A stretch of DNA of 37,300 nt from a bacterium (lineage in GTDB: Bacteria; Actinomycetota; Acidimicrobiia; Acidimicrobiales; CATQHL01), in the NCBI GenBank assembly GCA_026706565.1, contig JAPOYM010000075.1, forward strand, positions 1 through 37,300, read 5' to 3'. Each line of letters opens with the position of its first letter. Position 1 is the first letter of the stretch. Positions 2,740 through 32,334 of this stretch are shown here, piece by piece. A model generated the notes under the pieces. It saw only the letters and a program-made list of their open reading frames with translations. It did no database searches and was not told where the DNA came from. The position numbers and the translations under genes were made by a program.

Positions 2740-3750
2740 TCATCCGATCTCTTCGACGGCGACGGGGCGGCGCTCGCGTACCGAGCGCCAAGCGGCCAGA
2801 GCCAGCGCCAGCGAGGCCCGCCCGTCGGCGAGCGTACACGGCGACGGAGCGCCGCCCAGCATGGCGACGAAGGCGGACCATCCGGCGACGTAGGCCGGGA
2901 TGTAGCGCTCGATGAAGAAGTAGGGCAGCCCCGGGCCGCGCGCCCCGTCGGGGCCGCGGCTGGCGGCGGACGCGACGGGCGGATTGTCCGAGGCGGCCAT
3001 GCCCGCCGAGCCGAAGGCCTCCACCCGCTGGTCGTAGCCGTAGACCGCCCGGCGGCTGTTGTCGATCGTGCTGATGGCGCCGTTGGCGTGGCGGCAGACC
3101 ACCACGGCGGTGTCCAAGTCGCCAGCCGCGCCGATCGCCTCGTCTATCAGCACCGCGCCCGCGGCGTACACCTCGGTCACCTCGCTGCCGGCAATGAAGC
3201 GGACCATGTCGAAGTCGTGGATGGTCATGTCGCAGAACAGCCCGCCCGAGGCTTCCAGGGACAGGACGGCCGGCGGGGGCGCCGGGTCGCGGCTAGTGAC
3301 GCGGACGAGGTGTACGTCGCCGATGTCGCCGGCCGCCACGCGGTCGCGCACATAGCGGTGGCTCGGATCGAAGCGCCGGTTGAACCCCACCTGCACGGCG
3401 ATGCCGGCGGCCTCGGCGGCGGCGATCCCGCGGTCTGCCTCGCCGAGGTCCAGCGCCAGCGGCTTCTCCACGAAGACGGGTTTGCCGGCCGCAGCGGCGG
3501 CCACGAGCAGGTCGGCGTGGGTGTCCGTCGAGGTGCAGACCGCCACCGCGTCGCTGTCGGCCGAGCAGATGAGGTCTTCGGCGCTGGCGGCGCGGCGTGT
3601 GCCGAATTCACCGGCGAGCGCCTCGGCGGCGCCCTCGGCCACGTCGTAGACGGCCGCCAGTCCGGCGCCGGGCACCTGCCGGGCGAGCAGCTCGGCGTGC
3701 ATCCGACCGATCCGGCCGCACCCCAACAGCCCGATGCGGACGCCGCTCAC
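2740..3750 (-). CDS. iolG: Inositol 2-dehydrogenase-like Gfo/Idh/MocA oxidoreductase
   Basis: GLLGCGRIGRMHAELLA Rossmann motif; VFVEKPLALD; GFNRRFDPSHRYVRDRV; GGLFCDMTIHDFDMVRFI as in IolG. Confidence 0.85.
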   Translation of the reverse strand: MSGVRIGLLGCGRIGRMHAELLARQVPGAGLAAVYDVAEGAAEALAGEFGTRRAASAEDLICSADSDAVAVCTSTDTHADLLVAAAAAGKPVFVEKPLALDLGEADRGIAAAEAAGIAVQVGFNRRFDPSHRYVRDRVAAGDIGDVHLVRVTSRDPAPPPAVLSLEASGGLFCDMTIHDFDMVRFIAGSEVTEVYAAGAVLIDEAIGAAGDLDTAVVVCRHANGAISTIDNSRRAVYGYDQRVEAFGSAGMAASDNPPVASAASRGPDGARGPGLPYFFIERYIPAYVAGWSAFVAMLGGAPSPCTLADGRASLALALAAWRSVRERRPVAVEEIG

Positions 3751-3808
3751 GGAGTGGTCGCTTCCCTGGGCGGCCGCGGGGCGGAGGCCCGACCGGGCGG
3801 CCCGGCGC

Positions 3809-5665
3809 CTACCATCCCACCCTCTGGCGAGCCTTGCTGGCTTCCATTGCCTCTCGTGCCTCGCGGACCTCTGGCCGGCTGCTCACCTCGGGCACCCCCA
3901 CCTCCCACCAGGCGCCGCCTGTGGTCCAGCGGTGGGGGTGGGTCCGCACGGCGATGACGTAGGTGCCGGCAGCGGCGCGGGCCCGCTCGAAGGCGCCGGC
4001 CAGTTCGGCGACGGTGGTGACGGTCTCGGCCTCGCAGCCCATTGCGGCGGCGTGGGCGGCGAAGTCCACCGCCACGAGGTTCTCCACCCGGGCGTCGCTC
4101 AGGAGGTTGTTGAACGGGGCGCCTCCCTGGGCGACCTGCAGCCGGTTGATGACGGCGAAACCCCCGTTGTCGCAGACGATGACGATGAGTTTGTGCCCCG
4201 ACAGGACCGTGCTGTAGAGGTCGCTGTTCATCATGAGGTACGAGCCGTCGCCTACCAGCACCACGACCTCGCGGTCCGGCATCGCCATCTTGGCCCCCCA
4301 ACCCCCGGAGATCTCATAGCCCATGCAGGAGTAGCCGTACTCGGAGTCGAAGGAATGCACGGCTTGGCCCCGCCAGCCGTTCACGGCCTCGCCCGGCAGG
4401 CCGCCGGCGGCGGTCACGACGTAGGTCGACGGCCGCGCGGCCCGGTCCACGACGCCCACCACCTGTGCGTAGGAGGGGGGCTCGTCCCCGTCGCCCACGG
4501 CCGTCTCGGCGGCGGCGATCTTGTCGATGTAGGCGTGGTACTGCGATGTCTCCGCGGCGGCGCGCGCCGACCACTCCTCGCCGGCCCTGTAGTCGCCGAC
4601 GGCCCTGCTGAGTGCGGCCAAGCCCTCGCGGGCATCGGCCACGAGCGGCAGCGACAGGTGCTTCGTGGCGTCGAAGCGGGCGGCGTTCAGGCCGATGATG
4701 CGCACGTCGCCCCCGAACACCGTCCAAGAGCCGGTGGCGAAGTCGCCGAGACGCGTTCCGACTGCCAGCACCACGTCGGCCGCGGCGGCCATGGCGTTGG
4801 CCGAGGTGCAGCCGGTCACGCCGATCGGGCCGCAGTTCAGCCGATGGTGCGCCACTAGGGACGTCCGCCCGGCGACTGTCTCGGCGACGGGGATGTTGTG
4901 CTGCTCGGCGAAGCTCGCCAATTCGGCCTCGGCGAGTGACCAGTGGACTCCGCCGCCCGCGATTATCAGGGGCCGCTCGGCGGCGGCGAGGGCGGCGGCC
5001 GCCCGGCGCAGCTCGGCGGCGTCGGCGGGGGGCCGGCGGATCTCGTGCACCGTCTCGTCGAAGAAGCGGGCCGGGAAGTCGTAGGCGTCCGCCTGGACGT
5101 CCTGGGGCAGCCCGATGAACGCCGGACCGCAGTCGCCGGGGTCGAGCATGGTAGCCACCGCGTTGGGCAGCGACTGGACCACCTGGGCGGCGGCGGTGAT
5201 GCGGTCCCAGTAGCGCACGACCGACCGGAAGGAGTCGTTGACCGTCTCCGAGGGCGCCCCGAAGTGCTCCACCTGCTGCAGCACGGGGTCGGGGATGCGG
5301 CTGTTGAACGTGTCGCCGGCGAGCAGCAGCAGCGGCATCCTGTTGGCCATGGCCACCGCGGCCGCCGTCACCATGTTCGTGGCGCCGGGCCCGATGGAGC
5401 TGGCCGCCGCCATGATCCGACGCCGCCTGCAGGCTTTGGCGTAGGCGACGGCGGCTAAGGCCATGCCCTGCTCGTTCTGGCCGCGCCACGTGGGCAGCGC
5501 CTCGCCGGCCTGCTCGAGTTCGTGACCGAGGCAGGTCACGTTCCCGTGGCCGAAGATTGCGAACACGCCGGGAAACAGCGGCGCCGTCTGGCCGTCGGCC
5601 TCGATGCGCTGCGCGGCCAAGTAACGGACGATGGCCCCTGCGGTGGTCAGCCGGATGGTCTCCAC
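3809..5665 (-). CDS. iolD: 3D-(3,5/4)-trihydroxycyclohexane-1,2-dione acylhydrolase (ThDP enzyme)
   Basis: TTAGAIVRYLAAQRIE...PGVFAIFGHGNVTCLGHELEQ...RGQNEQGMALAAVAYAKACRRRRIMAAASSIGPGATNMVTAAA; ThDP GDGSYLMMNSDL. Confidence 0.92.
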   Translation of the reverse strand: METIRLTTAGAIVRYLAAQRIEADGQTAPLFPGVFAIFGHGNVTCLGHELEQAGEALPTWRGQNEQGMALAAVAYAKACRRRRIMAAASSIGPGATNMVTAAAVAMANRMPLLLLAGDTFNSRIPDPVLQQVEHFGAPSETVNDSFRSVVRYWDRITAAAQVVQSLPNAVATMLDPGDCGPAFIGLPQDVQADAYDFPARFFDETVHEIRRPPADAAELRRAAAALAAAERPLIIAGGGVHWSLAEAELASFAEQHNIPVAETVAGRTSLVAHHRLNCGPIGVTGCTSANAMAAAADVVLAVGTRLGDFATGSWTVFGGDVRIIGLNAARFDATKHLSLPLVADAREGLAALSRAVGDYRAGEEWSARAAAETSQYHAYIDKIAAAETAVGDGDEPPSYAQVVGVVDRAARPSTYVVTAAGGLPGEAVNGWRGQAVHSFDSEYGYSCMGYEISGGWGAKMAMPDREVVVLVGDGSYLMMNSDLYSTVLSGHKLIVIVCDNGGFAVINRLQVAQGGAPFNNLLSDARVENLVAVDFAAHAAAMGCEAETVTTVAELAGAFERARAAAGTYVIAVRTHPHRWTTGGAWWEVGVPEVSSRPEVREAREAMEASKARQRVGW

Positions 5666-28762: not shown

Positions 28763-29605
28763 TCAACTTGTCGTACTCAGCCGGGCATGCCCGGACCGGG
28801 ACCGTACTCGACCGCCGGTCCCCGCCTCGCCTCTGCGGTCGAAGGCGACGATGACGGGCGGGCTGAACCGTTCATTCGCATCGGGTGGGCGCCCGGCGGT
28901 GGGACGATGCTGATAGCTGACGACTTCGCTGTCCACGGTGCAGAAGAGTTGCTCCCCGGCGACGAGGAGCTCTCCGTCGGGCATTGCCACGCCCATTCTC
29001 TGGCACAGTTCGCCGTCGGGCAGATCGGCCCATCGGGAGCGATCGTCGGTGAGTTGCCGCAGGTAGCGACGGGTGAGACCCACCGCGACGGAGTCGAGAT
29101 CTCCTACCGACCGACCACTGCGCCCTTCGGAAGGGTCCCGGCCGTCCCGTTCTGCGTGGAGCGCCGCGACCTCATCGGGTGTCAGCGGGAGGCAGGTTCG
29201 CCCTATGCGCCGTGTGACTTTGCCCGCCACGGCATGCACTGCCGCACTGACCGGAACGCCGACGAGTAGGAGCCTCGAGTCGCGGTACACATGCTCGGCC
29301 ACCGACACGGTGAGGCGGGGGCTGGCGGTATCGAAGACATAGCGACGGACCTCCAGAATGTCGAGGTCAGTGCCGGAGTACGCATCGAGCCCGGCAGGCG
29401 TGTTCTCCACGCCCACCACCACGGTGCCTCCTTGGCCGTTCGCCAGGCAGGCGGCGGCCTCCACCACAGCGAGCAGCGTCTTCCTGCGGCCACCCCGAGC
29501 CGACTTGAACTCCAGCGTCTCGGATTCGAGGTCGCCGGGCGATTCCCCGTGATCGATCCGCGCCAGCGCGTCGGAGACCTCGTTGGGGATCGGGAACGCC
29601 ACCAC
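28763..29605 (-). CDS. AlbA_2 (Schlafen-type) putative DNA-binding domain protein, probably C-terminally truncated
   Basis: ESETLEFKSARGGRRKTLLAVVEAAACLANGQGGTVVVGVENTPAGLDAY; VPVSAAVHAVAGKVTRRIGRTCLPLTPDEVAAL; C-terminus ends in low-complexity RRGEAGTGGRVRSRSGHARLSTTS. Confidence 0.7.
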   Translation of the reverse strand: MVAFPIPNEVSDALARIDHGESPGDLESETLEFKSARGGRRKTLLAVVEAAACLANGQGGTVVVGVENTPAGLDAYSGTDLDILEVRRYVFDTASPRLTVSVAEHVYRDSRLLLVGVPVSAAVHAVAGKVTRRIGRTCLPLTPDEVAALHAERDGRDPSEGRSGRSVGDLDSVAVGLTRRYLRQLTDDRSRWADLPDGELCQRMGVAMPDGELLVAGEQLFCTVDSEVVSYQHRPTAGRPPDANERFSPPVIVAFDRRGEAGTGGRVRSRSGHARLSTTS

Positions 29606-29615
29606 AAATTTTAGT

Positions 29616-29980
29616 CTAGTGGCCGAGACGCAGCAAGACGAAAACTATTCCGGCCAACTCCTGTACGTCGTGGCCGAGGCCGGGGAGGGTCTCGCCGCTG
29701 ACGAAGCGCTTCGGGGCTGCCTCCAGGGTCTGCCCGGTGCTGTGGGTGACGATCCATGGCGCCCGCTTCCGCACGATTCCTCGCAACTCGTCGCTCGATG
29801 TCGTTGCGGGAGAAGCGACCTCCACGCCGTTTCCGTCCACGGTGATCTGGACGGTCTTCTTGCGACGCTCGCTGCGGCGGATGCGGTAGTCGATGGTCGT
29901 GTCACCGAAGCGGACGGAATCCCGTTCGGTGATGGAGAGGCGCACCGCGCCGACGTCGAGGTCGGCGCCTTCGGGCAGCC
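29616..29980 (-). pseudogene. Fragment of YgjP/DUF45-type (SprT-like) metallopeptidase; HExxH part missing. Upstream limit uncertain (ORF extends to 30134)
   Basis: FGDTTIDYRIRRSERRKKTVQITVDGNGVEVASPATTSSDELRGIVRKRAPWIV...PKRFVSGETLPGLGH matches the N-terminal part of YgjP-like hydrolases, then stops. Confidence 0.65.
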
Positions 29981-30185
29981 AGCGGCGCAGTTGCTCGTTG
30001 GTCTGTCCCGTTGGTGGGGCGCTGCTGCGGAGACCGCGGTTCGCAGAAGCACACCTCAATGCCAAGGGCCTCCTCGAAGCTGACTCGCTGTGCCATGCTG
30101 GACACCCCCATCGGCCGGTTGCGGTTGCTTCCAATCAGCCGTCATGGCCGATCAGTCTCAACCACCGATGGAGTTCGCCCTCTTG

Positions 30186-31046
30186 TCAGTCATGGGGTTC
30201 TCCTATCGGGAGTGGCGTGAGTTTGGATCGGAGCGTGTCCTCGAACTCTGCGCGCGTGACTGGGGCGGCGGCTAGAAGCTTGTCGCAGGTCTGCTCCAAG
30301 GTCAGCACTTCCCAGTGTCGCCGCAGCAGTTGCCCGTCGCGGGCCTCGGACACCAACCAGATCACGTCGCCGCTGTCCAAGTCGTTGGAGGGCGATGGCG
30401 ACGGGCCGCCGATTGAGTCGTGGAACGGCAGGTCCACGGCGACGGCGATCTTTGATCCCCACCGCCGCAGAGTCGGCCCCTTCACCTGTAACTGGGGCAT
30501 GAGCCGCTTCGCGCTGGATGATCGCCAGTCGGGGCGACGGTGCCCGACCGGGAACGGCGCGTCTCCGCCGCCGTCAACCCCGAGCGCCGCGAACTCACGG
30601 CCCATGCCATCACCGGAGAAGTACACGGACTGGATCTCCAGCCCGTACCAGCGCAGTCCGTGATCCTCAGCGGCGACCACGAGGTCGATCATGCCCGCCG
30701 CCGCGCCGGCCGGGCCGACCATGAACGGCACCTCGCGGGCCGTCATCGCGTTAGAACCGAATCCGACGATCTCCGCAAGCCACCCCAACAGCATCTGCTG
30801 TTGCTCAAAGCGGTTGGGGCAGGTCACCACGTTGGGGCCGACACTGGCCGCTATGCGGTCGCCGCGGGCGATGTAGGGGCGTATGGAGCACACACCGCCG
30901 GGTTTCGTGCAGTCACCGGTCGTGAACGGGCAGGGCCGCCGCTCGCGGCGCTGAGCGGACTCCGCTAACCGTTGACGCTCAGACGCGGGCAGCGCCGTGA
31001 GTTCGTGGCCGTACCATTCCGCGATCCCGTAGCGGACGGCCGTCAT
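30186..31046 (-). CDS. NotI-family type II restriction endonuclease
   Basis: RYGIAEWYGHELTALPASERQRLAE; Cys motif CPFTTGDCTKPGGVCSIRPY (NotI-type Cys4 metal site); NVVTCPNRFEQQQMLLGWLAEIVGF; LEIQSVYFSGDGMGREF. Confidence 0.85.
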   Translation of the reverse strand: MTAVRYGIAEWYGHELTALPASERQRLAESAQRRERRPCPFTTGDCTKPGGVCSIRPYIARGDRIAASVGPNVVTCPNRFEQQQMLLGWLAEIVGFGSNAMTAREVPFMVGPAGAAAGMIDLVVAAEDHGLRWYGLEIQSVYFSGDGMGREFAALGVDGGGDAPFPVGHRRPDWRSSSAKRLMPQLQVKGPTLRRWGSKIAVAVDLPFHDSIGGPSPSPSNDLDSGDVIWLVSEARDGQLLRRHWEVLTLEQTCDKLLAAAPVTRAEFEDTLRSKLTPLPIGEPHD

Positions 31047-31900
31047 GCGAAGAGCCGGTCGCGGGTGATGACCAACTCCACAGCGCGGCGGTTGTGTCCG
31101 TTACGCATTTCCACGGTCACCGCGTGGAATCCGTGCTCGGCCGCCAAGCCGAGCACTTCGTCGCAACAGTCGTAGGTCATCAGAAAGTCTGCGCCCGTCT
31201 CTGCGAGCACCCCGAAGATGCGGTCATGGTCCACTGTGCTGTGGGCGTACAGACGGGTCCCCGCACGTTTGCCGCCCGCGGTGTACGGCGGGTCCACGAA
31301 CAATCGCACGCCCGCAATCCTGGCAGTCACGGCGAGCACTGCTTCACCGTCGCCTTCGCAGAACGTGATCCGGTCGGCGTGCTCACCGATGGCGCGCAAC
31401 CGGCCAGCGAGCGTGGCGGGATACCAGCGTGACGCGACGCCGTTGCCGTTCTCGCCGTTGCGGGTCAGCGACGCGCCCGGGGCGAGAACCCCGCCCCGCC
31501 GCGTGCGGTTCAGGACCAGCGTGCGGAACCCGTGATCCAACACCGTGACCGGCGGCGTCACCTCTAACTCCGACACGCCGTCCCGCGTCGCCTCAAACGC
31601 CAAGATCCGGTCGGTCAGCTCGTCGCCGTGCATCAGCGCTGCTCGCCAGAACGCCGCCACATCACGGTCCAAATCAACCATCAACGCCCGTTTCGACGAC
31701 CCCTCCATGACCGCCGTGAGGGACACGATCCCGCCGCCAGCGAACGGCTCCACCAGAAGATCGCAACCGCCGGCAAGCCAATGCCGCACATGAGGCACCA
31801 GCCACGTCTTGCCTCCGGGATAGCGCAGAAGGCTGCGCTGAGGCACCGTGGCGACGTTCACCGCCGCGATCCGCGATGTCGGCGCGAGCAGCGCAACCAT
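31043..31900 (-). CDS. D12-class (Dam-like) DNA adenine N6-methyltransferase
   Basis: RYPGGKTWLVPHVRHWL, LLVEPFAGGGIVSLTAV, catalytic FVDPPYTAGGKRAGTRLYAHSTVDHDRIFGVLAETGADFLMTYD; 4-bp overlap with the endonuclease gene. Confidence 0.88.
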   Translation of the reverse strand: MVALLAPTSRIAAVNVATVPQRSLLRYPGGKTWLVPHVRHWLAGGCDLLVEPFAGGGIVSLTAVMEGSSKRALMVDLDRDVAAFWRAALMHGDELTDRILAFEATRDGVSELEVTPPVTVLDHGFRTLVLNRTRRGGVLAPGASLTRNGENGNGVASRWYPATLAGRLRAIGEHADRITFCEGDGEAVLAVTARIAGVRLFVDPPYTAGGKRAGTRLYAHSTVDHDRIFGVLAETGADFLMTYDCCDEVLGLAAEHGFHAVTVEMRNGHNRRAVELVITRDRLFA

Positions 31901-32210
31901 CAGAACCGGCGGCCGGGCGGGATGCCCGCCACATACCGATCAAAGTGCTCAGCGGAGACGTGGTGGACCGTCCCGTGACAGCCGCGCTTGAGCCCAGCCC
32001 AGAACGACTCGATACCGTTCACAAGCGGGGACACTGCGGCCCGTCGGGCCAGCGAATGCTCGCGACCCACGCCTCAGCGGTCGCGTCGTCGGGGAACTCG
32101 CGGATCAGGTCCACCAGCGTGAGGCCCTTGCGCTCGTACCTACCGGGAGCGCTGTGGCGACTGGCGGGCGGCGGGGTCTTTGATGTTGTGATCATACTCT
32201 CAGTGTGCAC
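31900..32210 (-). mobile_element. IS1595-family transposase remnant with internal deletion
   Basis: N-terminal LTLVDLIREFPDDATAEAWVASIRWPDGPQCPRL(stop at 32019) followed directly, in another frame, by C-terminal VNGIESFWAGLKRGCHGTVHHVSAEHFDRYVAGIPPGRRF(stop at 31900); zinc finger and most of the catalytic core missing. Confidence 0.8.
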
Positions 32211-32334
32211 GAGGGGTGTGACACTGCACGGCCGTCGGCTGTGGTGCCTCGGTGGCTTTGGCAGAGGATGGTGCGCTCGACGGTGCGGAGTGTGAACGGG
32301 CCGGGATCCTCCGTCATCCAGTCCTCGGCGGCGG

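Follow-up and report, generated by a model that had tools for sequence, protein, structure and literature searches.

A NotI-superfamily endonuclease and a D12 methyltransferase in a mobile restriction-modification cassette of Acidimicrobiia: a specificity mismatch that is most likely one of labels

How can an endonuclease resembling NotI, whose site GCGGCCGC contains no adenine, be protected by a methyltransferase of a class known for methylating adenine? The question is raised by two overlapping genes in a stretch of 37,300 nucleotides (hereafter the window) from contig JAPOYM010000075.1 of an Acidimicrobiales genome. The D12 enzymes characterised so far, among them Dam and DpnM, mostly make N6-methyladenine (m6A). 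Our analysis suggests that the apparent mismatch most likely lies in the labelling and not in any new chemistry: the NotI-like endonuclease probably cuts an adenine-free, GGCC-centred site that the D12 enzyme would protect by N4-cytosine methylation (m4C).

The cassette and its surroundings

Direct reading of the window agrees with the coordinates, strand and 4-bp overlap that an earlier note had given for the two genes. The features are the following:

30181..31931, minus strand: mobile cassette, the stretch common to L008, a contig of another Acidimicrobiia MAG (blastn, 90% identity)
30186..31046, minus strand: NotI-superfamily Type II restriction endonuclease, 286 aa (PF12183 match, residues aligned to NotI 3bvq, hhalign)
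31043..31046, minus strand: 4-bp ATGA overlap of methyltransferase stop and endonuclease start (direct reading)
31043..31900, minus strand: D12 (alpha-class) DNA methyltransferase, predicted N4-cytosine, 285 aa (FAGGG and DPPY; PF02086)
31921..32215, minus strand: remnant of an IS1595/ISXO2-type transposase (Zn_ribbon_IS1595 E 2e-4 and DDE_Tnp_IS1595 E 2e-7, one per half)

Both genes lie on the minus strand and are transcribed in the order methyltransferase, endonuclease; translational coupling across the ATGA overlap, methyltransferase first, is likely. Against the 90%-identical L008 cassette, dN/dS is 0.14 for the endonuclease and 0.13 for the methyltransferase, values indicating that both genes are under purifying selection and are kept functional. 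A single Type II restriction-modification (R-M) system is the best explanation for the two genes.

The pair recurs as a conserved Type II R-M cassette that moves horizontally. Similarity with L008 ends just past the endonuclease stop codon (blastn), and the transposase remnant, which has lost its middle part, lies directly upstream of the pair. In L008, a longer transposase copy (a 246-aa ORF, 1409–2149) ends where the methyltransferase starts, and the R-M pair looks as if it were the passenger of an IS1595-type element. Among the flanking window genes covered by the Pfam scan, most have ordinary metabolic functions. Beyond the part common to L008, on the downstream side of the cassette, are an AlbA_2/Schlafen-domain gene (28763–29605, minus strand) and a partial YgjP-like metallopeptidase ORF below the Pfam cut-off (29616–30134, minus strand).

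The transposase remnant abutting the cassette, together with the plasmids and viral contigs that carry its relatives, might indicate a chiefly selfish or orphan-methylation element, the lasting effect of which is the marking of host DNA and not restriction. The endonuclease is also the part lost in broken copies (see below), and the PADLOC matches include orphan methyltransferases and PD-Lambda-5_B. However, the window endonuclease retains all catalytic and cluster residues in addition to its low dN/dS, and we regard this as the least probable of the readings considered here.

The endonuclease and its kinship with NotI

The earlier note had assigned the endonuclease to the NotI family and pointed to a cysteine cluster. 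This holds: the product of 30186–31046 matches the Pfam family NotI (PF12183) with E 3e-39, and the four cysteines and the catalytic residues are all kept. In the alignment with the reference NotI sequence (PDB 3bvq), C39, C46, C53 and C76 correspond to NotI C42, C55, C65 and C81 and are invariant in 26 of 26 rows, and E105, D121, E137 and Q139 of the PD-(D/E)XQ active site correspond to NotI E145, D160, E182 and Q184. In the nuclease core of NotI, Q replaces the K of PD-(D/E)XK (PMC4081073).

PF12183, named after NotI, misses both true NotI (3bvq) and the protein of G043, a 41–43% relative of NotI, in searches up to E 1. Since NotI itself goes unmatched, the Pfam label alone carries no GCGGCCGC specificity; the NotI naming stands at the superfamily level, and the specificity is not transferable with it. 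Profile comparisons lead to the same level of kinship. The window-family profile against NotI alone gave a weak result (hhalign probability 47, E 2e-4), and against NotI together with bridging families, composed of plasmid-encoded proteins from Xanthomonas, Pantoea and Sphingobium, a probability of 99 and E 2e-18. Through these bridging families, sequence comparison solidly supports membership in the NotI superfamily, by a kinship that appears remote but firm. A PDB search with the NotI-like profile returned no match because NotI is too distant. The AF2 model of the endonuclease (pLDDT 84.5) had no significant Foldseek match in the PDB, the best weak ones including PD-(D/E)XK nucleases.

A cutter of GCGGCCGC had also been thought a heavy burden in this GC-rich genome. 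We counted every palindrome of 4, 6 or 8 bp in a 184-kb sample of the own genome and in 1.2 Mb of G681, a complete relative carrying the NotI-like/D12 pair. GCGGCCGC was observed 63 times (72 expected) in the own-genome sample and 163 times (172 expected) in G681; for GCGATCGC the corresponding values were 13 (17) and 41 (41). None of the candidate 8-mers is avoided in these 184 kb and 1.2 Mb, and the counts say nothing about an 8-bp site here; the method does detect strong cases, such as CTGCAG in G681 (24 observed, 292 expected). The burden thus carries little weight as an argument, as GCGGCCGC sites are common, are not avoided and, once methylated, impose none. The CTGCAG deficit in G681, about 12-fold, points to PstI-type R-M pressure there. 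GGCC is mildly under-represented in the own-genome sample (2683 observed, 3067 expected in 184 kb) and not in G681, a small effect.

The methyltransferase, its partners and the methylated base

The D12 class and DPPY motif noted earlier were confirmed for the methyltransferase: the product of 31043–31900 matches PF02086 (MethyltransfD12) with E 7e-11 and contains FAGGG (the F-x-G-G SAM motif) as well as DPPY. By contrast, the premise that such an enzyme acts on adenine fails, as M.CbeI, annotated as a D12 N6-adenine enzyme with DPPY, yields N4-methylcytosine in GGCC and adjoins the HaeIII isoschizomer CbeI (PMC3425538). M.CbeI, solved as 7m6b (PMC8616854), is also the closest solved relative of the window enzyme by sequence (E 4e-9, residues 22–252), whereas Escherichia coli Dam matches with E 0.003 and at the N-terminus only. 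For the D12 partners of Thermus and Variovorax, M.CbeI is the sole PDB match. The AF2 model of the window D12 has a predicted Dam-like fold, with 7m6b as its best PDB match (E 9e-14, identity about 22%) ahead of DpnM and Dam; its loops 144–157 and 208–220, which could contact DNA, have pLDDT below 50. On Nostoc plasmids, D12 genes that closely resemble M.CbeI (E 2e-92) overlap genes of the HaeIII family (GGCC), so D12 enzymes do protect adenine-free sites. Comparison with these relatives suggests that the window enzyme marks cytosine. In PADLOC, the best model for the D12 protein was PD-Lambda-5_B, which belongs to a phage-defence system that PMC9519451 describes as an RM+Abi system compacted in its prophage version.

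In the D12 tree, the clade of NotI partners that includes the window enzyme forms a separate branch (support 100/100). This tree is unrooted; a split supported at 100/99 places M.CbeI on the side of Dam, and the window clade does not join M.CbeI and the D12 partners of HaeIII-type enzymes in a group that excludes Dam. With an unknown root and long branches, the methylated base is unreadable from it.

More can be learned from the partners of the endonuclease. Among NotI-like genes gathered from plasmids, viral contigs and actinobacterial genomes, 18 loci carry a D12 partner of the window clade, 42–91% identical to the window D12, and 10 further ones a C5 cytosine methyltransferase; none of these 18 and 10 loci was without a methyltransferase partner. 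The 18 loci belong to Acidimicrobiia, Thermus, proteobacterial plasmids and viral contigs, and answer the earlier suggestion to look for other neighbours of this kind. As they all carry the same D12 clade, the NotI-like/D12 association is not due to chance. Two more members of the clade occur on plasmids without a NotI-like neighbour, in Deinococcus (L018) and Bdellovibrio (L019); next to them are, respectively, a 174-aa ORF without Pfam match and a 453-aa PHP/DNA-pol-III-alpha-like ORF.

In two Actinobacteria the D12 gene is intact and the endonuclease broken, by a frameshift (L010/L047, genome G099) or an internal deletion (L012/L046, genome G264), which may reflect decay or, for the L010 frameshift, a sequencing error; intact relatives exist. 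One could imagine from such copies that the D12 enzyme is not a functional protector, or that the pair is decaying, and that protection of the NotI-like site falls to a cytosine methyltransferase encoded elsewhere. The own genome (75.6% complete) indeed contains genes for further C5 enzymes and for N6/N4 enzymes, as well as a second D12 gene. Nevertheless, a NotI-type recognition region is found in none of the C5 genes of this 75.6%-complete genome, which leaves unsupported the earlier idea that the real partner is some other cytosine enzyme; moreover, purifying selection acts on the window endonuclease, which is intact, and the D12 partner is adjacent at all 18 loci. We consider a distant protector very unlikely.

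The type of partner has changed during the evolution of these endonucleases. The NotI-like enzymes of Variovorax and Paraburkholderia, the former with a D12 partner and the latter with a C5 enzyme plus Vsr, are 82% identical, and the endonuclease tree contains 4 changes of partner type, at least 2 of them on strongly supported branches. At this identity, the two enzymes very probably share one site, which would then be open to protection by cytosine methylation. The region between motifs VIII and IX of C5 enzymes sets their target. In the NotI-associated C5 enzymes, including that of G043, whose gene directly precedes the one for the 41–43% relative of true NotI, this region is 33–48% identical between groups, and the argument built on it runs through homologs at that level; in control C5 enzymes with catalytic identity of 38–47% it is mostly 20–25% identical, with one control at 32%. 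The 82% pair, the partner swaps and the common C5 recognition region together point to a NotI-type, GGCC-centred site as the likely one in this family; being free of adenine, such a site would leave the D12 enzyme with the N4 of cytosine as its only target.

Alternatively, the NotI-like enzyme might have shifted to a palindrome containing adenine, for instance a GATC-centred 6–8-mer, where the D12 enzyme would make m6A. This would accord with the chemistry of most characterised D12 enzymes, with the fold matches of the window D12 to both Dam and DpnM, with the remoteness of the window endonuclease from NotI and with a D12 tree that does not favour an m4C clade; in principle, either type of enzyme could protect a site in which A and C both occur. 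It is harder to reconcile with endonucleases 82% identical being protected by C5 or D12 enzymes, with the recognition region common to the C5 partners and the C5 enzyme found beside a relative of true NotI, and with the greater closeness of the window, Thermus and Variovorax D12 sequences to M.CbeI than to Dam. An adenine-containing site therefore seems unlikely to us. Of the two ways out that the earlier note had left, a D12 enzyme making m4C is the better supported, by kinship with M.CbeI and by the C5/D12 swap at 82% identity, and an A-containing site is less so.

In the m4C reading that we favour, the NotI-like endonuclease, with its Cys4 metal knuckle and PD-(D/E)XQ nuclease, would cut an adenine-free, NotI-type palindrome around GGCC, and the D12 enzyme would methylate the exocyclic N4 of a cytosine within that palindrome, in the manner of M.CbeI at GGCC. 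Related systems would rely on a C5 methyltransferase and m5C instead, and the two kinds of protector have been exchanged several times. Here we infer the site and the methylated base, starting from a pairing, a partner swap, homologies and conserved residues that the comparisons show. The apparent mismatch would most likely be explained by a property of D12 enzymes that is known but has drawn little notice. More speculatively, and with some doubt on our part, the NotI-partner D12 clade may be a second, separate alpha-class lineage of N4-cytosine enzymes acting on a 6–8-bp GGCC-centred site, repeatedly exchanged with m5C enzymes at one NotI-type endonuclease, such that one site would have different chemistry depending on the host.

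Implications and comparison with known systems

If the m4C reading is true, the automatic label “DNA adenine methylase” is a misnomer for the NotI-partner D12 clade, and m4C extends among D12 enzymes beyond M.CbeI and DmtB, the two compared in PMC3425538. The swap between m5C and D12 protectors at endonucleases 82% identical would constitute a natural experiment on the re-partnering of R-M systems. The system also offers cheap, testable candidates for rare-cutter endonucleases and protective methylases, and a 4-kb Aeromonas plasmid carries it whole. In the literature we found no report of an m4C methylome at GCGGCCGC for NotI, nor of a characterised pair of NotI-family and D12 enzymes. As far as the literature examined shows, reading the clade as m4C is new, and so is the swapping between m5C and D12 protectors at NotI-like enzymes; annotations of the NotI-like/D12 pairs already exist in public records.

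Such annotated pairs, NotI-family plus “DNA adenine methylase”, on pEST4011 and on Variovorax, Aeromonas and Thermus plasmids represent the same two-gene system, where “adenine” comes from automatic annotation. In them the endonuclease comes first, whereas in the window the methyltransferase does, with the 4-bp overlap. With NotI itself (PDB 3bvq/3c25, GCGGCCGC), the window endonuclease shares an IAE-x-x-GH start, the four-cysteine cluster, the E/D/ExQ site and a KR-x3-Q-x3-K stretch, but identity is about 24% over 182 columns, its length is 286 aa versus 383 aa, and its partner is a D12 enzyme whereas the nearest NotI relative found has a C5 one. The NotI-family plus C5 systems of Xanthomonas, Pantoea, Cronobacter, Sphingobium, Paraburkholderia and Sedimenticola, all plasmid-borne, resemble the window pair in endonuclease superfamily and adjacent methyltransferase, and differ from it in their m5C-type protector. 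One of them, on Paraburkholderia plasmid pBN5 (L004), is flanked by a Vsr repair nuclease (3509–3913). Going by their host genera, EagI and XmaIII may belong to this C5-paired plasmid branch, but we draw no evidence from that possibility. E. coli Dam and DpnM (GATC, m6A) have the D12 fold and DPPY in common with the window methyltransferase, but the sequence match of Dam is weak and confined to the N-terminus, and the region after DPPY reads LYAHSTVDHDRIF ... MTYD in the window enzyme and AYHTNSFTLEQQ ... LISNHDT in Dam. D12 fold and DPPY are likewise found in M.CbeI of the CbeI system of Caldicellulosiruptor bescii and in DmtB of Anabaena variabilis. M.CbeI is the best match of the window D12 in both sequence and fold and is itself a D12 enzyme protecting an adenine-free site, although its partner is of HaeIII type with a 4-bp site, its identity to the window enzyme is about 22% and it lies on a separate branch of the tree from the window clade.
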